A program made the position numbers and the translations under genes. Positions 1,752 to 9,488 of a DNA stretch of 24,096 bases are shown one piece after another. The notes beneath the pieces are model-generated. The model saw only the letters and a list, made by a program, of their open reading frames with translations. It was not told where the DNA came from and did not search any database. Position 1 is the stretch's first letter, and every line of letters begins with the position of its first letter. Origin of the DNA: a virus; IMG/VR virus record IMGVR_UViG_3300034073_003583, positions 1 to 24,096 of that record; one strand, 5' to 3'.

Positions 1752-2000
1752 TTATGCCCAATTTTCACGAGCATATTGGACAACCTCATTAACCGACTGC
1801 CCGATGTATCCATACAGCGCATTGTTATCCATGAAATCGAACAGCGCTTGCAATTCCGGGGTGTCCCGATAGTGCTTTTCCAGCATCGCACGATGCCCAA
1901 AAAGCGCCAGGACGGTATGCGAGGCTTTGCAATAGTTGCGGCGTTGTTCTGAAGTCAAACATTCGCATGACTCTATTAACGATTGGCTCAGCGGGTTCAT
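1752..2000 (-). CDS. Small protein, 82 residues, paralogue of the gene at 11541-11768
   Basis: First gene of the leftward strip, with ATG at 2000 and an AGGAG site 7 bases upstream. It contains LIESCECLTSEQRRNYCKA near the N-terminus and ends VVQYARENWA. The same two signatures, ESCEHLT near the start and V..YALDNWA near the end, occur in the 75-residue product at 11541-11768, which lacks about 20 residues of the middle. I take them as diverged paralogues. The protein is probably helical. No function is known to me. It is expressed from the consensus promoter at 2048-2076, which shares an 18/20-base block with the promoter of its paralogue. Confidence 0.75.
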   Translation of the reverse strand: MNPLSQSLIESCECLTSEQRRNYCKASHTVLALFGHRAMLEKHYRDTPELQALFDFMDNNALYGYIGQSVNEVVQYARENWA

Positions 2001-2084: not shown

Positions 2085-2201
2085 TACCCTCTTTTACCCT
2101 CTACCCTTACCCTCAATTTTTTTACCCTTGAGGGTAAAAAGTCAATTCTACCCTCATTTACCCTCACCCTCTTTTAGAGAGGGTGAGGGTAAAGAGGGTA
2201 A
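2085..2201. repeat. ACCCTC/GAGGGT repeat array, candidate replication origin (iteron-like)
   Basis: ACCCTC occurs at 2086, 2096, 2109, 2150, 2160 and 2166, and its complement GAGGGT at 2130, 2179, 2185 and 2194, with ACCCTT variants at 2103 and 2124. Many copies are followed or preceded by A/T runs (TTTTACCCTC). Two stems form: TTTTTACCC with GGGTAAAAA around 2119-2140, and a perfect 16-base stem at 2156-2171 / 2177-2192 with a 5-base loop. The array lies directly upstream of the leftward small-gene promoter and downstream of the primase-helicase gene. Clustered short repeats next to a replication gene are typical of phage and plasmid origins; function here is inference. Confidence 0.65.
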
Positions 2202-2374
2202 GACCGAATCCGCCATGATATAGGGCAATATTGCCGATGCTGTTAGTCAATATCGACTAGAGCGCCACAGGAAGCCATACAAGGCGCTCTAAGCAATTTT
2301 TGGTATGGGTGTCAGGGTGCGCTGTTTTTGAGCGTTCCTAGGCGATTCTAGGGATTGCGGTATTTTTGGGGTTT
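2202..2374. other. Non-coding spacer with palindromes
   Basis: I see no gene here. The stretch holds a perfect 12-base palindrome GGCAATATTGCC (2224-2235), an imperfect palindrome AGTCAATATCGACT (about 2246-2259), and a 9-base perfect inverted repeat TAGAGCGCC / GGCGCTCTA (2258-2266 and 2283-2291) with a 16-base loop. None is followed by a convincing T-run on the minus strand, so they do not look like a terminator for the primase-helicase gene. They may be protein-binding sites belonging to the same non-coding regulatory or origin region. Confidence 0.5.
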
Positions 2375-2403
2375 TTACCCTCACCCTGAGCGGGTGAGGG
2401 TAA
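2375..2403. repeat. Perfect 12-base stem built from the array unit
   Basis: TTACCCTCACCC (2375-2386) and GGGTGAGGGTAA (2392-2403) are perfect inverted repeats around a TGAGC loop, reusing the ACCCTC unit of the main array. On the plus strand a T-run follows after two bases, so it could also terminate plus-strand transcription, but no plus-strand gene lies upstream. On the minus strand, the direction of the adjacent gene, the stem is followed by A residues. A further AGGGTAA lies at 2414-2420. I regard it as an outlying element of the origin-like region. Confidence 0.65.
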
Positions 2404-2446: not shown

Positions 2447-4453
2447 TCAACCGCTGGATTTTTTCAGCACCAGCGCCAGGGCGTCCGACTCACTGGCGAG
2501 CGTCCATCCGTGGTTAACCTCGGAAATAATGCAGGCATTTAATAATGACCCGATTAATCTATCAGGGTATCCGCCAGCATTAACGGCATTTTGCGCGGCC
2601 CGCTCCTTTGCGCCGTCTGTGATTAATTTATTAATCAGTGCGCTCTTGCTCAGGTACGGCTTCCCGTCTATCACCTCCGCGCCAGATGCCCACCATGCTT
2701 TCTCCCACGTGGCGCGGTGCGCGTCTAGCTTCCTGTCCCGCTTCTCCGGCGCCGGCCCTGGCGCGTCCGCTGACTCTATTGTGGCGCTCGTGACCTGCTC
2801 GCCGTCTTCGTCAAGCCAGCCGGGCACCGGCGTTTTTTTCAGGTTCACATAGACCGGTTCCGCGAGTTCGCCGTCTTTATTTTTGCGCTGCGCCACTTCC
2901 ATCGGGCGCTCGTTTTTGCTTGGCGTAACAGATATTTCAATGTCGAGCGCACCGCGCCAGGCGCTAGACCCGCGCCCACGGTCTTGCGCCTCCGGGTTTA
3001 GGCCCGTATGGTGTACAAGCACCACAGACGCACCGAACTCGGCGCTTAGCCGTGCGCATGAATCGAGCATCGCGCGCACGTCCTGGGGCTTGTTTTCGTC
3101 GCCTTTTAGGAAACGGTGCAAGGTGTCGACGATTATCAGGCCCGGCTTTACAGGCAATCGGCGGATTTCTTTGGAGGTGCCGTTGTAACCTACTGGCGTA
3201 TCCAAATCACAGCCTGACCGGCTTACCCACATACTCAGCCGCTCCGCACCATGCGCCGCCTTCCAGGCCGCAATCCGCGCCCGCATGCCGTGGTGGCCTT
3301 CGCCAGCTAGATAAATCACAGGGCACGGGCGCACTATATGCCCCTGCCATGCGGCGAAACCTGCCGCCAAATGCATGGCCATATCCAGCATCACAAAACT
3401 TTTCCCGCCCCCACTTGGCCCGTGAACCATCATGGTGGCGTCGGCCTGTAACCATCCTTTAATCAGCCAACGGATTGGCGCAGGTTTCGCGCTAAATTCG
3501 TCGGCCTGCATTAGCCAGGTTTCTGGCTCAGGATTAAGCAACGCCGCTAAATCGCCCCCGGCCCGCGCGAAGTCATTCGCGTCCCCTGTCGTCGGCACTA
3601 GTATCATTTTTGCGCCGTGCTTGGTGGCTGCCTTCTCCGCGTAGCGCGCACCTGTGCCAGATTCGTCATTATCCGCCACTATAACAAGCTCCGCCTCCGG
3701 CCCGAGTTTGGCCCGCGCCGTTGCGGCGGTGGCTTCCAGGTTCCCGGCGCTGTACGCCACGAAACATGGTGCGCCCGTGGCTTCGTGGATGCTGGCACAT
3801 GTGGCGAACCCTTCGCCGATGAATGCCCGGCGCGCGCATTCATCCGCGCCAATCACCCAAAACCGGCCCGCAACCTGGGCGCCAGTGTGGTAGCGTTTTT
3901 CGCCAGTGTCGGCGATGTATTGGAGACTGGATAACTCGCCGCTCGGCGCATACAGCGGTAGCAATAGCCGCCCATCCTGGGCGATGCGCGCACCGTGGGC
4001 GGCTACTCCTTTATTATATAGATACGGGTGCGATCTATCGGCAGGCGTCGCACGCTCCCAGATTGCCGCCGCCGCTTGCGCCGCTTCCTGGTGCGCCTTG
4101 GCCTGCTCGGCATCGCGCAGTTTCCGCGCCTCGTCCATGCGCCGCATGTGTTCCAGCCGTTCGCCTGGCGTCATTTCGTCATTCATGTCCGCATGCCAGG
4201 CTTTATCTACGCCTGAGCGCCAGCAACCGAAGCGGCCCGCAGGGATGCCGTCCATGTATGCCACATACCAGCCGGCGCGGTTATGCTCTGGCCCGCCGCC
4301 ATTGGTGCCAGATTTGAAGCGGTGGATTTGACCATCAAAAATCAGGCGGTCAGGCGGGGTTAGCCCCTCGCTAATCATTGCCTGGCGGAGTTGCGCGTCT
4401 GGTGGCGTGGTTGTGGGTGCGGCGTCATTCTCTAACAGCCATGATAGTTCCAT
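2447..4453 (-). CDS. Toprim primase fused to RecA-like replicative helicase
   Basis: Predicted bifunctional replication enzyme: primer synthesis and DNA unwinding at the phage fork. I chose ATG at 4453 (MELSWLLEND), two bases after the stop of the regulator gene with GGGG ahead, over an ATG at 4498 that would overlap that gene; this gives 668 residues. The Toprim domain shows the glutamate in FIGEGFATCASI (about residue 214) and the DND in VIVADNDESGTG (about 261-263). The helicase domain has Walker A GPSGGGKS (about 345-352), Walker B LIIVDTL (about 439-445) and VVLVHHTG (about 490-498), as in RepA/AAA_25 hexameric helicases. No CxxC zinc ribbon precedes the Toprim part, unlike many primases of this kind. 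The gene borders the repeat array. Confidence 0.9.
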   Translation of the reverse strand: MELSWLLENDAAPTTTPPDAQLRQAMISEGLTPPDRLIFDGQIHRFKSGTNGGGPEHNRAGWYVAYMDGIPAGRFGCWRSGVDKAWHADMNDEMTPGERLEHMRRMDEARKLRDAEQAKAHQEAAQAAAAIWERATPADRSHPYLYNKGVAAHGARIAQDGRLLLPLYAPSGELSSLQYIADTGEKRYHTGAQVAGRFWVIGADECARRAFIGEGFATCASIHEATGAPCFVAYSAGNLEATAATARAKLGPEAELVIVADNDESGTGARYAEKAATKHGAKMILVPTTGDANDFARAGGDLAALLNPEPETWLMQADEFSAKPAPIRWLIKGWLQADATMMVHGPSGGGKSFVMLDMAMHLAAGFAAWQGHIVRPCPVIYLAGEGHHGMRARIAAWKAAHGAERLSMWVSRSGCDLDTPVGYNGTSKEIRRLPVKPGLIIVDTLHRFLKGDENKPQDVRAMLDSCARLSAEFGASVVLVHHTGLNPEAQDRGRGSSAWRGALDIEISVTPSKNERPMEVAQRKNKDGELAEPVYVNLKKTPVPGWLDEDGEQVTSATIESADAPGPAPEKRDRKLDAHRATWEKAWWASGAEVIDGKPYLSKSALINKLITDGAKERAAQNAVNAGGYPDRLIGSLLNACIISEVNHGWTLASESDALALVLKKSSG

Positions 4454-4455
4454 AA

Positions 4456-4632
4456 TCAGCCCCAGAGCGCAGCTTTGATTTTCTCCATAGTTTCCCATTC
4501 CGGGTTTTGAATTTTCCCGGCCCGGAGTCTATACAGTGTATTAGGATGCACACCACAGACTAGCGCAAAGGCTTGAATTTGGCGGGTTTTCAATTCCTCT
4601 CGAATCTTTTCGAGCATAGGGACATTCGGCAT
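4456..4632 (-). CDS. Small Cro/CI-like helix-turn-helix regulator, 58 residues
   Basis: ATG at 4632 (MPNVPMLEKI) has a near-ideal GGAGG site 5 bases upstream, so the longer in-frame start at 4686 is rejected. The protein is a single HTH domain: IREELKTRQIQAFALVCGV forms the first helices, HPNTLYRLRAGKIQNP the turn and recognition helix, and WETMEKIKAAL the last helix, the usual layout of Cro/CI-type repressors. It is probably a dimeric transcriptional repressor acting on the divergent promoter region just upstream (4672-4705) and perhaps on the other early promoters. It is cotranscribed with the primase-helicase, two bases apart, so it may set the balance between leftward replication and rightward recombination genes (inference). 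Confidence 0.85.
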   Translation of the reverse strand: MPNVPMLEKIREELKTRQIQAFALVCGVHPNTLYRLRAGKIQNPEWETMEKIKAALWG

Positions 4633-4671
4633 ATTACCTCCGTTACTAGCTGAATATTTTTTACTACAGTG

Positions 4672-4744: not shown

Positions 4745-5488
4745 ATGAATAAAATCCTAGAATCTGTAAGCCGAACTAGGCGACTAGTTGCGCCTAAAGC
4801 CGTAATAGGCGGACAAGGGAAAATCGGCAAAACAACTTTTGCCGCATCCGCGCCTGATTCGGTTGGCATACTCACCGAGGACGGGGCCAGCGCAGTTGAT
4901 TCAATGGCTTTCCCGCTTTGCCAGACGCTAGACGATGTGTACGCGGCAATCGCCACGCTGGCGAATGAAGAGCATTCTTTCCGCTGGGTATGGGTGGATT
5001 CTCTGGACTGGCTGGAGCCGTTGATTCATGCTCAGGTTTGCAAGGCGAACAATTGGAATAACATAGAATCGCCTGGCTATGGCAAAGGTTACGTGGCTGC
5101 CGCCGCAGAGTGGCGCGTCTTTTTAGACGGCCTAGACTACCTGCGCAATCATCGCGGAATGGGCGTAATCCTGATAGTGCATAGCATTATTAGGCGCATT
5201 GAGGACCCGATGCACGACCCGTATGACGCGCACGATATTAAGCTGCACTCGAAGGCTGCGGGCCTGGTGAAAGAATGGGCGGATATTATCGGGTTCTGTG
5301 ACTACGACCTAGCGATAAAAGAAGGCAAGGGCGATTTTGGCAAAACCGAACGACGCGCCCTCCGAGTAAAAAACCGCATTCTTCACCTTGAACCGCACCC
5401 CGCGCACTTTGGCGGGAATCGGCTAGGCTTGGTGAACTGTGAACTTGATTTTACGAAACTTGCTGAACAACTTGAGGCTATGAAATGA
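4745..5488 (+). CDS. RecA-fold ATPase, Sak4-like / AAA_24 family
   Basis: Predicted P-loop ATPase of the phage Sak4-like group (AAA_24), which assist single-strand annealing or strand exchange during phage recombination. Walker A is GGQGKIGKTT (residues 22-31) and Walker B is WVWVD (81-85). Near 145 the sequence GVILIVHSIIRR occupies the sensor-like strand position. At 247 residues it fits this single-domain family. ATG at 4745 follows GGGGGAATC, a strong site used repeatedly in this genome. It is the first gene of the rightward operon, and its last codon overlaps the DUF669 gene by 4 bases. Sak4-like ATPases next to DUF669 proteins are a known phage arrangement, which supports both calls. 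Confidence 0.85.
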   Translation: MNKILESVSRTRRLVAPKAVIGGQGKIGKTTFAASAPDSVGILTEDGASAVDSMAFPLCQTLDDVYAAIATLANEEHSFRWVWVDSLDWLEPLIHAQVCKANNWNNIESPGYGKGYVAAAAEWRVFLDGLDYLRNHRGMGVILIVHSIIRRIEDPMHDPYDAHDIKLHSKAAGLVKEWADIIGFCDYDLAIKEGKGDFGKTERRALRVKNRILHLEPHPAHFGGNRLGLVNCELDFTKLAEQLEAMK

Positions 5489-6030
5489 ACCTGAACCATT
5501 TTGACTTAGACAACATCCCGACCACTGGCGGCGAACCTGGCGAATACGCGCCACTTCCGGCTGGCTGGTACTCGGCTACGGTTGCCGATATTGTGGAGAA
5601 AACCACTAAAGACGGCACTGGCGAATACCTGAATGTCCGCTTAAACATCACCGGCCCCACGCATGCCGGGCGGGTTGTGTTTACTAAACTGAACATCGTA
5701 AACAATAGCGCCACGGCGCAGGATATTGGGCGCAAACAACTTGCCGCGCTGTGCGATGCGTGCGGGTTCGGCGTTGGGCGTCGGCCTGCTGATACTGATG
5801 AATTAATCGGTGGCGATGTCCAGATTCTTCTCTCAATCCGCCCAGAGTCGAACGGGTATAAAGCGTCTAATGATGTTAAGGCGTTCAAGCCCGCGAACGG
5901 CGCGCCGATACCGAAGCCTGGGCCGGAAAAGTTATCTTCTACGTCTTTCTCTCCAACTGCCTATGAGTCGGAAAACCCTGCGCCGCGCGAGGTGCAAACC
6001 GGGCGCAAGCCGTGGGAAAAAGCAAAGTAA
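5485..6030 (+). CDS. DUF669 family protein, likely single-strand DNA binding partner
   Basis: The 181-residue product has the DUF669 pattern: an N-terminal YAPLPAGWYSATVADIVEKTTKDGTGEYLNVRLNI segment, a VVFTKLNIVNNSATAQDIGRKQLAALCDACG helix, then a GGDVQILLSIRPESNGYKASNDVKAF strand pair. The first and third parts look like an OB-type beta fold. The C-terminal 50 residues are proline- and serine-rich and end in charged residues, as in SSB-like tails. The family is widely suspected of binding single-stranded DNA. Translation is coupled to the ATPase gene (ATGA overlap). A hairpin terminator follows the stop codon. Confidence 0.8.
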   Translation: MNLNHFDLDNIPTTGGEPGEYAPLPAGWYSATVADIVEKTTKDGTGEYLNVRLNITGPTHAGRVVFTKLNIVNNSATAQDIGRKQLAALCDACGFGVGRRPADTDELIGGDVQILLSIRPESNGYKASNDVKAFKPANGAPIPKPGPEKLSSTSFSPTAYESENPAPREVQTGRKPWEKAK

Positions 6031-6038
6031 TCAAACCC

Positions 6039-6060
6039 GCCCCGCTTCGGCGGGGCTTTA
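6039..6060 (+). terminator. Intrinsic terminator-like hairpin
   Basis: GCCCCGC (6039-6045), TTCG loop, GCGGGGC (6050-6056), then TTTATC. The stem is strong but the T-run is short, so termination is probably partial and allows transcription into the downstream nuclease and helicase genes. Confidence 0.7.
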
Positions 6061-6078
6061 TCAGACTTTGGGGGATTT

Positions 6079-6252
6079 ATGGATAAAGAAACAAGGCAGT
6101 TAATTAATGACCTGCTCGACGAGGCCGATGGCTGCCGGAATAACGGCGTAAATGATTTGGCCTACCTGTTAGAGCGAGCAGCGGCAAAAATTAACAGGCT
6201 TTCGCAGTTGGGAAATGCGGCCAAACTGAGCACGCCGGAATGGTGGAAATAA
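6079..6252 (+). CDS. Small helical protein, 57 residues
   Basis: ATG at 6079 is preceded by GGGGGATTT, a ribosome binding site identical to those ahead of 10215 and 12679. The protein starts MDKETRQLINDLLDEADGC, is almost all helix (DLAYLLERAAAKINRLSQLG) and ends STPEWWK. Its TAA overlaps the next ATG (TAATG), so the two are translationally coupled. Position between recombination genes suggests a small accessory to replication or recombination, but no family is recognised. Confidence 0.7.
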   Translation: MDKETRQLINDLLDEADGCRNNGVNDLAYLLERAAAKINRLSQLGNAAKLSTPEWWK

Positions 6253-6767
6253 TGCACCATCTAACAGAATCACAGCGCCACCAAATAGCCGCCCGCATTT
6301 ATAAAATCCTGCGCGATAATCCGCTAGGGATTTCGCGGACAAACCTACTCGCGCACTTTGACGGCGTTTGTACTCGCGACCAGGCTCTAACGCAACTCGC
6401 CGAGTTGCGCGGCTGTGGCCTGGCGCACAATTTCAAACAGGCAGGCACAGGCACAAGAGTTTGGCGTCCATTCGCCACCAAAATCCGCCAGCCGCATGTT
6501 AGGCACGTAAAAGACCCATCCGCCGAAGCGCCGGGGCGCAAAATGAACCGGACTGAGATTATCCGGCCCGGTGATTTGGTATGGTCACGCGGTGGCTGGC
6601 GTCCGGTTATGGCGCAGTCTCTTGAAGACGGCGACCCCGTAGGCAATCGCCTAGTGGTGCGGCCAAAACCGGAAAAACCCGCCAAGCGGCGCGGCTCAGG
6701 CGTAAACAATGCACCAGCCTCGCGGGCTGATATTCGCGCGGCGCTTGATTGGAGTCCGCTAGAATGA
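6252..6767 (+). CDS. Winged-helix-like protein, 171 residues
   Basis: I take ATG at 6252 (MHHLTESQRHQIAARI), coupled to the previous stop, over an ATG 12 bases earlier that lacks a ribosome binding site. Residues 8-70 read as a winged helix: IAARIYKILRDNPLGISRTNLLAHF, then CTRDQALTQLAELRGCGLAHNF and a GTGTRVWRPF wing. The second half holds a short beta segment (EIIRPGDLVWSRGGWRPV) and a basic linker (KPEKPAKRRGSGVNN), ending RADIRAALDWSPLE. A DNA-binding role in replication or regulation is likely from the fold and context, but the family is not identified. Confidence 0.75.
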   Translation: MHHLTESQRHQIAARIYKILRDNPLGISRTNLLAHFDGVCTRDQALTQLAELRGCGLAHNFKQAGTGTRVWRPFATKIRQPHVRHVKDPSAEAPGRKMNRTEIIRPGDLVWSRGGWRPVMAQSLEDGDPVGNRLVVRPKPEKPAKRRGSGVNNAPASRADIRAALDWSPLE

Positions 6768-7741
6768 ACATAGTTGAGGCAATTGACGCATATCATTTTG
6801 CACAAACCGATACGCCACGCCAGCATTTAGGCGCGTCGGAAATCGGGCATGGCTGCGACCGCTGGCTGTGGCTCTCGTTCCACTGGGTGGTGAAAGATGA
6901 AAAGTCCGGGCGCATTCGCCGATTATTGCGCCGTGGGCAGCTAGAGGAATCGCAAATAATCGCCGATTTACAAGCAATCGGCGCAAAGATTTACGGCGAG
7001 CAAAGGCGCGTATCCTTTGGCCCGCACGTGGGCGGCCAGATTGATGCAATCGGGCGCGATTTGCCCGGATTAATCGGCGAGCATATCCTGGAATTTAAGA
7101 CCCACTCGCAAAAAAGCTTTAACGCAACTATCAAGCATTCCTTGACAGTTGCCAAACCGATGCACTTCGCACAGCTACAGGCGTACATGCTCGGCACAGG
7201 CATCCCGCGCGGCCTTTATATCGCCGTGTGCAAAAACACCGACGATATGTATACGGAGGTGGTTGAGCTAGATAGGCAGTTTGCTACTGAGCTAGTAGAG
7301 CGCGCTAACAGAATCGCGGCGCTAGACTATATCCCTGGCGGAATCAGTTCAAACCCGGCTTGGTACGAGTGCAAAATGTGCGCGGCCCATGATTTTTGCC
7401 ACGTCTCTAAACTGGCGAAACAGATTAATTGCCGCACGTGCGCAAGCGCGGAGCCACAATCGGCGGGTGGTTGGAAATGCGGCCAGTTCGGCGATTTAAT
7501 CCCAGCCGATTTCCAGGCAATCGGGTGCGATAATCACTTAATGCGCCCCGATTTAGTGCCCTGGCCGGCGATTGATGCCGGTTCCGACCATGTGATTTTC
7601 GAGATTGAAGGCGCACAGGTACGGAATGGCGTGGGCGGGTTCCTCAGTCGGGAACTAGTGGCGAATGCGCCGGCCTGCGCGTCGGGGGATGCGCTGCTTA
7701 TGGACATGCGAGAGAAATTTGAGGGGGAAATAAATGGCTGA
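6764..7741 (+). CDS. RecB/Cas4-type PD-(D/E)XK nuclease with Fe-S cysteine motif
   Basis: Predicted exonuclease for DNA end processing in phage recombination. ATG at 6764 overlaps the previous stop (ATGA) with GGAG 9 bases upstream; 325 residues. The nuclease core shows D94 in GGQIDAIG, E110-x-K112 in ILEFKTHS, and the RecB-family Q137-xxx-Y141 in AQLQAYM. C31 in HGCDRWLW together with C203, C206 and C212 (C-x2-C-x5-C in ECKMCAAHDFC) matches the four-cysteine Fe-S cluster of AddB, Cas4 and Dna2 type nucleases. A second set, C223, C226, C239 and C255, follows and could form an added zinc site. It sits between a winged-helix protein and a helicase, overlapping the latter by 8 bases. Confidence 0.85.
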   Translation: MNIVEAIDAYHFAQTDTPRQHLGASEIGHGCDRWLWLSFHWVVKDEKSGRIRRLLRRGQLEESQIIADLQAIGAKIYGEQRRVSFGPHVGGQIDAIGRDLPGLIGEHILEFKTHSQKSFNATIKHSLTVAKPMHFAQLQAYMLGTGIPRGLYIAVCKNTDDMYTEVVELDRQFATELVERANRIAALDYIPGGISSNPAWYECKMCAAHDFCHVSKLAKQINCRTCASAEPQSAGGWKCGQFGDLIPADFQAIGCDNHLMRPDLVPWPAIDAGSDHVIFEIEGAQVRNGVGGFLSRELVANAPACASGDALLMDMREKFEGEING

Positions 7742-9488
7742 GTTGCGCGATTATCAAAAGCGCGGGATGCGCATGCTTTATGAATGGTTTGAAAAAAATG
7801 ACGGCCACCCATGCCTTGTCATGCCTACTGGCTCAGGCAAAAGCCACATTATTGCGCAAATAGTAAAAGACGCAATGCAATGGTCAGGAACGCGCGTCTT
7901 GATGTTGACGCATGTTAAAGAACTCATCGAGCAAAACGCCGCCAAACTCCGCGCGGTCTGGCCTAATGCGCCGCTGGGGATTTACAGCGCAGGATTGGGT
8001 AAACGCGAGTTGGGCGAGCCGATTATCTTTGGCGGTGTTCAATCGCTCAGGAATAAATCGGAATTAATCGGCTTTGTCGATTTAATAATAATCGATGAGG
8101 CGCACTTGATTAATCATGATGCTGAAGGCGGCTATCGCCGATTAATCGCCGATTTGACCGCGATTAATCCCGATTTGCGAGTAATCGGCCTGACTGCTAC
8201 GCCTTACCGATTGGGGCACGGATTAATCACCGATGCGCCGGCGATTTTCTCCGATTTAATTGAGGTTGTCACGATTGAGGAGCTAGTTCATAAAGGACAA
8301 CTGGCGATTCTCAAAAGCAAAATCACCGAGGCGCGCTTAGACGTGTCAGGAGTCCATAAGCGCGGGGGCGATTACATAGAAAAAGAACTACAAGAGGCTG
8401 TTGATACTGCTATCAATAATTCTGCCGTTGTCGATGAGATTATCAGCCTTGCCGGTGACAGAAAAGCCTGGCTGATTTTCTGCGCCGGTGTTGACCACTC
8501 GCGCCATATCGCCGAGTTGTTAAACGACCGCGGAATCCAGACAGCATGCATTACAGGCGCAACGCCGAAAGCCGAGCGCGCCGATATTTTAGCCAGGTAC
8601 AAAGCCAGCGAGATCCGCGCGGTGACGAATGCGAATGTTTTAACTACTGGCTTCGACTACCCGGACATTGATTTAATCGCCATGCTCCGCCCAACAATGT
8701 CGCCTGGTCTATACGTCCAAATGGCCGGGCGCGGTCTGCGCCTGAAGTCGCATACGGATCACTGCTTAGTCCTAGATTTTGCTGGCGTCGTCTCACAGCA
8801 TGGCCCGATAACTGGTGTTAAGACGCCGGAGAAGAAACCCGGCAACGGCAAAGGCGATTCTCCGGTGAAGGCTTGCCCAGAATGCCACGAGCTTGTCGCC
8901 ATATCCACGCGCGTATGCCCTGATTGCGGGTATGTGTTCCCGCTCCAGGCATTAAACAATAAATTTGAGTTACACAACGACGATATTATGGGGCTGAAAG
9001 TTTGCCCGAAATGCCGGAAAATTCATGGCACACTGGCGATTAATTGCGAATGCGGCTATGAGTTTGATGACGTAGACCCTGAGGACATTAAGCGCAAGGC
9101 AAATAGTTCACAGCGGGAAATGAAAGTTTCTCGGTGGGCGTGGTTTGTCCATAAATCGAAGGGAAGCGGCAAGCCGTGCTTGGCGGTCACATACTCCAGC
9201 GGCGATAGCCATATGACAGAATATTTCACGGTTTGGCATCCTGGCTACCCTGGCGAAAAATCCAGAAAAACGCTTTTCAATAAAGCGCTCGGTGGCGTGT
9301 ACGCCTTAATTGATGGGGAATTGGAGGGTGTAGACGTTTTTGGCGGGATGGTTAAGGAAAACGGCGAAATTGACCAAGACAAAGCGCTAGAATTTGCCGA
9401 ACTTGTAACCGAGTCAGTCAAGCCCCCGCGCTCCATAACCTACGAATACGATGGCAAATTTCCACGCATTATAAAGAGGGAGTTTTGA
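7734..9488 (+). CDS. Superfamily 2 DEAH helicase with two C-terminal zinc ribbons
   Basis: Predicted ATP-dependent DNA helicase or translocase of the type III restriction/UvsW-like branch. Motifs in order: LRDYQKRG (Q-like, 4-11), MPTGSGKS (motif I, 30-37), DEAH (II, 121-124), GLTATP (III, 152-157), NVLTTGFDYP (V, about 301-310) and QMAGRGLR (VI, 329-336). After the helicase core two cysteine clusters follow: C381/C384 with C395/C398 and C424/C427 with C438/C440, both ribbon-like. The last 130 residues (KVSRWAWFVHKSKGSGKPC onward) form a separate beta-rich domain often found after such ribbons in phage helicases. ATG at 7734 overlaps the nuclease gene by 8 bases with GGGGGAAATA upstream. Likely role: branch migration or fork restart. 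Confidence 0.9.
   Translation: MAELRDYQKRGMRMLYEWFEKNDGHPCLVMPTGSGKSHIIAQIVKDAMQWSGTRVLMLTHVKELIEQNAAKLRAVWPNAPLGIYSAGLGKRELGEPIIFGGVQSLRNKSELIGFVDLIIIDEAHLINHDAEGGYRRLIADLTAINPDLRVIGLTATPYRLGHGLITDAPAIFSDLIEVVTIEELVHKGQLAILKSKITEARLDVSGVHKRGGDYIEKELQEAVDTAINNSAVVDEIISLAGDRKAWLIFCAGVDHSRHIAELLNDRGIQTACITGATPKAERADILARYKASEIRAVTNANVLTTGFDYPDIDLIAMLRPTMSPGLYVQMAGRGLRLKSHTDHCLVLDFAGVVSQHGPITGVKTPEKKPGNGKGDSPVKACPECHELVAISTRVCPDCGYVFPLQALNNKFELHNDDIMGLKVCPKCRKIHGTLAINCECGYEFDDVDPEDIKRKANSSQREMKVSRWAWFVHKSKGSGKPCLAVTYSSGDSHMTEYFTVWHPGYPGEKSRKTLFNKALGGVYALIDGELEGVDVFGGMVKENGEIDQDKALEFAELVTESVKPPRSITYEYDGKFPRIIKREF

Follow-up and report, generated by a model that had tools for sequence, protein, structure and literature searches.

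A hexamer repeat array downstream of a phage primase-helicase gene: a probable replication origin whose unit co-varies with the enzyme's C-terminal domain

Introduction

Short repeats packed beside a replication gene raise the question of whether they mark the place where replication starts and, if they do, which protein recognizes them. We address this question for the virus record IMGVR_UViG_3300034073_003583, whose 24,096 bases are here called the window. The initial annotation had noted an array of ACCCTC/GAGGGT hexamers next to the primase-helicase gene and had taken it for a candidate replication origin. Comparison with related phages supports this reading: the place and layout of the array are kept, its unit tracks the C-terminal domain of the primase-helicase, and perfect DnaA boxes accompany it in many relatives. 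We consider it very probable, from comparative sequence analysis, that the array is the phage replication origin and that the C-terminal domain of the primase-helicase itself reads it.

Results

The repeat array of the window

An exact hexamer count over the whole length of the window located every repeat listed in the initial annotation, ten copies of ACCCTC or GAGGGT and two ACCCTT variants, at positions 2086-2199. Within these 114 bases the units of the main iteron array are placed in both orientations, with ACCCTC starting at 2086, 2096, 2109, 2150, 2160 and 2166, GAGGGT at 2130, 2179, 2185 and 2194 and the variant at 2103 and 2124; the core unit reads GGGTAA/GGGTGA. Two extra copies, at 2377 and 2396, lie within an outlying stem, and only three others (9324, 14647 and 15936) were found in the rest of the 24,096 bases. 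When the window was shuffled 30 times with a first-order Markov model, no hexamer surpassed 6 copies per such stretch. As is typical of iteron origins, a cluster of short repeats denser than chance thus lies beside a replication gene.

The three stems described previously were also recovered. A perfect 16-base-pair palindrome of inverted iterons occupies 2157-2193 (minus strand; arms 2157-2172 and 2178-2193), a short inverted pair of the variant units TTTTTACCCT and AGGGTAAAAA forms, by eye, a 9-base stem at about 2119-2140, and a perfect 12-base-pair palindrome built from the array's units is found at 2375-2403 (arms 2375-2386 and 2392-2403), some 176 bases from the main array. Another inverted repeat, TAGAGCGCC ... 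GGCGCTCTA, is present between both iteron clusters at 2249-2300. The array occupies the intergenic gap that follows the primase-helicase gene, 446 bases (2001-2446) bounded on one side by that gene (2447-4498, minus strand) and on the other by a small ORF (1752-2000, minus strand). Directly beyond the array, towards this ORF, there is a minus-strand sigma-70-like promoter matching the consensus at 12 of 12 positions (TTGACA-17-TATAAT, 2048-2076, read from 2076 to 2048).

The primase-helicase and its neighbourhood

The enzyme encoded at 2447-4498 is a protein of 683 amino acids with a TOPRIM primase and a RecA-fold (RSF1010 RepA-like) helicase, and its Pfam matches are AAA_25 and Toprim_3. The closest solved folds to its full-length model were Twinkle, T7 gp4 and RSF1010 RepA; as in T7 gp4 and Twinkle, TOPRIM and RecA-fold helicase are joined in one chain. 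Residues 585-683 (2450-2746, minus strand) were predicted by AlphaFold2 as a confident winged helix (pLDDT 90.8, pTM 0.83). Within it, residues 628-652 (2543-2617, minus strand), which co-vary with the iteron unit, comprise a predicted helix at 632-639, the one following the first helix of the HTH, and the subsequent loop. The 600 matches that Foldseek returned for this domain had E values of up to 10, none at or below 0.001, and a structure aligner gave generic winged helices, the highest Z being 6.7, so we do not claim a specific structural relative for it.

Upstream of the primase-helicase lie a small gene of the Cro/CI HTH type (4456-4635, minus strand) and a Sak4-like annealing ATPase gene (4745-5488, plus strand), the start of a divergent recombination block that is conserved in relatives and encodes Sak4, an SSB-like protein, a Cas4-type exonuclease and a helicase. 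Idiomarinaceae phage 1N2-2, Salicola phage CGphi29 and Alteromonas phages XX1924 and PB15 share this gene order, and their primase-helicases have 46-47% identity to that of the window.

Arrays in related phages

In 1N2-2, CGphi29, XX1924 and PB15 an array was found in the corresponding gap, made of other units (GGTACA, GGGACA, GGTTCA and GGTTCA, respectively); a fifth relative, record MW202475, had no array in that gap. A single-protein search retrieved no relative of the enzyme, but a profile search did, with 80 viral and 43 genomic loci among the matches listed. Only the 24 genomic loci with a long match entered the array count, before removal of redundancy. Of 88 non-redundant loci four were without the array side, leaving 84 with the window included; a stricter limit of 250 bases drops five and leaves 83. 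Each locus was scored by its best hexamer count in the 400 bases around the stop codon, against control windows of the same contig, and exact hexamers were counted, an expectation-maximisation motif finder being too loose.

A best count of at least 7 was reached in 63 of the 84 loci vs 21 of 3289 control windows. Sixty-four loci outscored all control windows from their contig, and 70 tied or exceeded them. Among held-out loci, from contigs not used before, the same count was reached in 22/44 vs 5/1003 control windows, and 28/44 exceeded, or 36/44 tied or exceeded, all controls of their contig (27/44 exceeded denser controls). The loci not above all own-contig control windows, 20/84 in the first set and 16/44 among the held-out (17/44 with denser controls), are explained in part by the degeneracy of GGGAAC arrays. 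By hexamer counts, no array was seen in L033, L073, L104 and L128 of the first set or in L219, L223, L224, L225 and L227 of the held-out one. An array at the same place in relatives, another trait of iteron origins, is therefore the rule here, though several relatives are without one.

In most relatives no more than tens of bases separate the array from the stop codon. Within lineages a common layout is kept, with unit pairs in one orientation, a palindrome, and pairs in the opposite orientation. The relatives' units fall under 24 labels, a label being the commonest GG-hexamer and about twenty loci having been labelled by eye, with the judgement that this involves; most units are GG followed by four bases. 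The expectation that the same repeats would recur at the same place in relatives thus held for place and layout and failed for the sequence of the unit, which differs by lineage. A literal search for the same repeats would give a false negative: the exact 16-base palindrome arm of the window was found in 26 stretches of viral contigs with at most 4 units per 300 bases, none of them an array, and the window's exact unit has therefore no sampled sister. By eye, its reading segment is nearest to the GGGTCA type, and its unit GGGTAA is one base from GGGTCA. The array regions of L093 and L105 show CGTATC/GATACG beside a few words resembling GTACGC, and their unit may be in transition.

Co-variation of the unit with the C-terminal domain

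Among pairs of enzymes with a core identity of 0.80-0.98, mean C-terminal identity was 0.83 when the unit was the same (n=104) vs 0.59 when it was different (n=236). In a test of single alignment columns, those that best separated same-unit from different-unit pairs were 638, 636, 640, 630, 637, 631 and 634, the segment 628-652 contributing two more among the next five; the column statistic was 0.445, vs at most 0.106 in 300 trials of a label shuffle that ignores kinship.

The unit of each locus was also predicted from its nearest relative, with relatives of more than 97% core identity excluded. This leave-one-out set had 104 of 117 rows, since the thirteen rows with a once-seen unit were excluded; five first-set loci labelled 'none' had been dropped (L077 among them, whose array was found later). 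Segment 628-652 gave the correct unit in 95/104 cases vs 61/104 for the core; the segment alone was correct 34 times and the core alone 0. The held-out test comprised 38 loci, that is, 45 new contigs minus one without the array side, five without a clear unit (the five held-out loci named above) and one near-duplicate, and the segment was correct in 35/38 vs 25/38 for the core. Concerning the three misses, the units of L186 and L216 were absent from the training set and that of L230 was present once.

Particular residues go with particular units. Residue 637 is Q in 21/21 GGTAAC, V in 18/19 GGGAAC and K in 5/5 GGTCCG loci, and N in both 21/21 GGGTCA and 17/17 GGGGGC loci. Residue 636 is R in 21/21 GGGTCA loci, E in 17/17 GGGGGC loci and D in 9/9 loci with GGTCCG or GGTACG, and residue 644 is Y in 5/5 GGTCCG and S in 3/4 GGTACG loci. 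On a FastTree tree of the core (117 sequences) the unit changed at least 48 times. Taken together, these comparisons indicate that it is a 25-residue stretch of the predicted C-terminal winged helix, and not the catalytic core, with which the unit changes.

The upstream HTH regulator was considered as the reader of the unit and rejected: among 126 close pairs whose units differ, 24 have an upstream ORF with 90% identity or more. In L055 and L246, with units GGGGGC and GGTAAC, the core is 0.99 and the HTH protein 0.98 identical, and segment 628-652 only 0.17.

Possible origin marks at the arrays

Perfect copies of TTATCCACA, the E. coli DnaA-box consensus, numbered 61 in 33,033 bases of array regions vs 26 in 726,796 bases elsewhere, a density of 1.85 vs 0.036 per kb. 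Such boxes are frequent, if not universal, at iteron-type origins; they were present at the array in 27/83 loci and absent in 56/83, and a search for perfect TTATCCACA boxes near the window's own array found none. Hairpins whose loop is TTTA or TAAA and whose stem is 6 or longer were identified in 33/83 array regions vs 4/3270 control windows. Stem sequences vary (among them CCCCCCC, CCCCAACCC, ACACACC and GTAACTCTTTC), and on the strand that codes for the primase the loop is TTTA in 32 of the 33 cases; this strand bias, together with the varied stems, favours a single strand that folds over a symmetric site in duplex DNA. The 16-base-pair palindrome of the window, with the loop CTAAA on the minus strand, is without the common TTTA loop and is the counterpart of this hairpin.

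With regard to the AT-rich unwinding region of iteron-type origins, array regions were lower in G+C than their own locus in 74/83 cases (median -0.053). The initial annotation had proposed a check by cumulative GC skew, and in 4/4 complete relatives the minimum lies about 1-3 kb from the array; it also falls at the divergent promoter, and the agreement, confounded by divergent transcription, is consistent with an origin but is not independent evidence for it.

Arrays apart from the enzyme

In a search for the GGGTCA array by DNA pattern only, 93 of the 103 contigs found had a primase-helicase end within 700 bases. Arrays without the enzyme, as possible hijackers, were sought among these 103, and the ten that lacked a primase-helicase end within that distance were five near contig ends, two short loci, and L295, L377 and L391. 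In L295 some 2 kb separate the GGGTCA array from an enzyme whose segment is of the GGGTCA type. L377 carries, at 4982-7048, a gene for an AEP Prim-Pol with an AAA_25 helicase in place of the TOPRIM primase-helicase, and its array (about 8880-8985) is found some 1.8 kb downstream of it, adjoining the small-terminase gene; a similar origin design may exist on another primase type and so be shared more widely. L391 has a complete array (3747-3860) between small ORFs and the large terminase gene and no primase-helicase in 11 kb; it may be a fragment, or an element borrowing another phage's initiator.

The array of L077 was found through its enzyme. This locus, first labelled array-less, has a GGTAAC-type segment; that unit was therefore looked for, and seven GGTAAC copies with three DnaA boxes were located about 1 kb further on, beyond an inserted gene (about 6190-7150, acyltransferase-like by eye). 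The same contig contains an unrelated repeat, perhaps coding, at 1851-2139, where GCCAGA occurs about 22 times per 290 bases in steps that are multiples of 6.

Discussion

Alternative explanations

Co-variation of the unit and the enzyme could stem from joint inheritance only, if the 3' end of the gene and the array recombined as one block with no contact between protein and repeats. The short distance between most arrays and the stop codon would suit this explanation, as would the C-terminal domains that were plainly swapped between near-identical cores. However, linkage alone fails because the signal peaks inside the domain and persists where enzyme and array have parted, by 1 kb in L077 and about 2 kb in L295. 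In 20-residue windows the fraction of correct predictions was 0.29-0.53 in the sampled core windows, 0.92 at 628-647 and 0.69 at 658-677, the last being nearer to the array than 628-647 and yet the poorer predictor; the signal is highest at the modelled recognition helix, not at the residues closest to the array, and drops towards it. Moreover, the domains of L095 and L109 are three letters apart (a change from Q to V at 637 and two further changes in the loop, at 644-645); one base of the unit separates their arrays, which have the layout in common. We consequently regard joint inheritance as quite unlikely.

The units could also be operators, bound by a transcription regulator or by the primase-helicase acting as one, and controlling the adjoining strong promoter. 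Such a role would account for the 12-of-12 promoter beside the window's array and for the HTH gene that precedes the primase-helicase gene in the window and the four named relatives, but a strong sense promoter adjoins the array in only 5/83 loci, so it is not general in relatives, the HTH protein is not what determines the unit, as seen in the 24 of 126 pairs and in L055/L246, and DnaA boxes are not expected at operators; we find this role improbable. A terminator, or another RNA structure ending the primase-helicase transcript, had already been thought unlikely in the initial annotation. The palindromes are certainly strong, and the outlying stem at 2375-2403 is terminator-like, with a run of T after it on the plus strand. 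This is, however, the wrong strand for the primase-helicase gene, and the only candidate at the array is on that strand. The relatives' listed hairpins are almost all without a T tail, a search of Rfam gave no match, and hexamers rekeyed in both orientations would be left unexplained, all of which makes a terminator very improbable. Although CGphi29 carries a TIGR array according to part of one report (PMC12045711), a guide-RNA array, a packaging site or a recombination site has hardly any likelihood here: the units are of 6-7 bases, irregularly spaced, in both orientations and without spacer-sized inserts, and in the named relatives the array stays with the primase-helicase gene and not with that of a terminase or integrase.

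A putative mechanism of initiation

If the array is the origin and the primase-helicase reads it, initiation could be envisaged as follows. Several copies of the enzyme would attach to the hexamer units by their C-terminal winged-helix domains, and the mixed orientation of the units would place these copies on both sides of the palindrome. The AT-rich spacers of the array would then melt, and the RecA-fold helicase would be loaded at the array itself. The TOPRIM domain would prime, possibly at the TTTA-loop hairpin once this is single-stranded, and in many relatives host DnaA may assist at the flanking boxes. We infer binding, melting, loading and the start of replication at the array from the features described above.

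Comparison with known systems

To our knowledge, no iteron-reading C-terminal domain is known in T7 gp4, Twinkle or RSF1010 RepA, and RSF1010 uses the separate protein RepC for its iterons. Although these are the closest folds, a predicted iteron reader sets the enzyme of the window apart from them. The SaPI and SCCmec enzymes are AAA+ type helicases without a TOPRIM domain, and the class of SaPI Rep and P4 alpha consists of SF3/AAA+ helicases. P4 alpha is a primase-helicase with an SF3 helicase, another type of primase and a C-terminal origin-binding domain, and the iterons of the P4 origin are in mixed orientation. We did not assign the window enzyme to this class, as its helicase matches were to Pfam AAA_25 and the RecA fold. 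Unlike the SaPI and SCCmec enzymes, the window family combines a TOPRIM primase with a RecA-fold helicase in a single chain and has 24 labelled units. It resembles P4 alpha in being a primase-helicase with mixed-orientation iterons and differs from it in the types of helicase and primase. By prediction and co-variation, it shares with SaPI Rep a C-terminal reader of short iterons placed 3' of its own gene and, with both SaPI Rep and P4 alpha, a C-terminal DNA-binding domain with the origin beside the gene. For SaPI Rep, and for SCCmec Cch2, part of a published account describes an initiator helicase whose C-terminal domain recognizes short iterons that immediately follow the gene encoding it (PMC7581432), and a portion of another states that P4 fuses helicase and primase (PMC7145576).

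An origin of the lambda O type was also considered and rejected, given that the iterons of the window lie outside the gene of the putative initiator and that this protein has a helicase. Lambda O is neither a helicase nor a primase. It binds an iteron cluster inside its own gene, as one section of a published text indicates (PMC7466680). PLE RepA_N differs from the window family in having no primase or helicase, iterons of about 30 bp and few variants. Part of the work on PLE (PMC8263062) reports that the RepA_N DNA-binding domain and the origin co-vary and swap as a module, that only cognate pairs replicate, and that the ICP1 nuclease Odn copies the origin specificity of RepA_N. Within the open-licence literature we found no published account of a TOPRIM-RecA enzyme with its own swappable iteron reader. 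The designs of SaPI Rep, P4 alpha and lambda O are known, and what appears to be new, as far as our searches reach, is a gp4/Twinkle-like TOPRIM-RecA enzyme with a predicted swappable iteron reader.

Implications for the phage family

A more far-reaching picture, tentative and as a whole rather doubtful, is that of a one-protein replicator of a large phage family: a gp4/Twinkle-like enzyme that would locate its own origin, open it and load there by means of a swappable C-terminal reading head, and a readable base-by-residue code, in which residue 637 would correspond to the third base and 644 to the fourth, with dozens of mutually exclusive natural pairs, priming at the TTTA hairpin, and rekeying driven by origin-copying parasites or rival phages. 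The 24 labelled units and their readers, which include pairs close to point mutations of each other, could allow a DNA recognition code to be derived, and matched pairs of unit and reader are possible orthogonal replicons for laboratory use. In uncultured phage genomes, origins could be sought by checking beyond the stop codon of the primase-helicase and reading the helix. That the unit changed 48 times or more on the core tree also raises the question of what causes the address of the probable origin to change so often. The arrangement resembles a lock and key in more than 100 related phages, the repeat acting as a password that is rekeyed together with the small putative reading domain of the enzyme. 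If our reading is true, a single chain would recognize the origin, unwind it and prime in this phage family.
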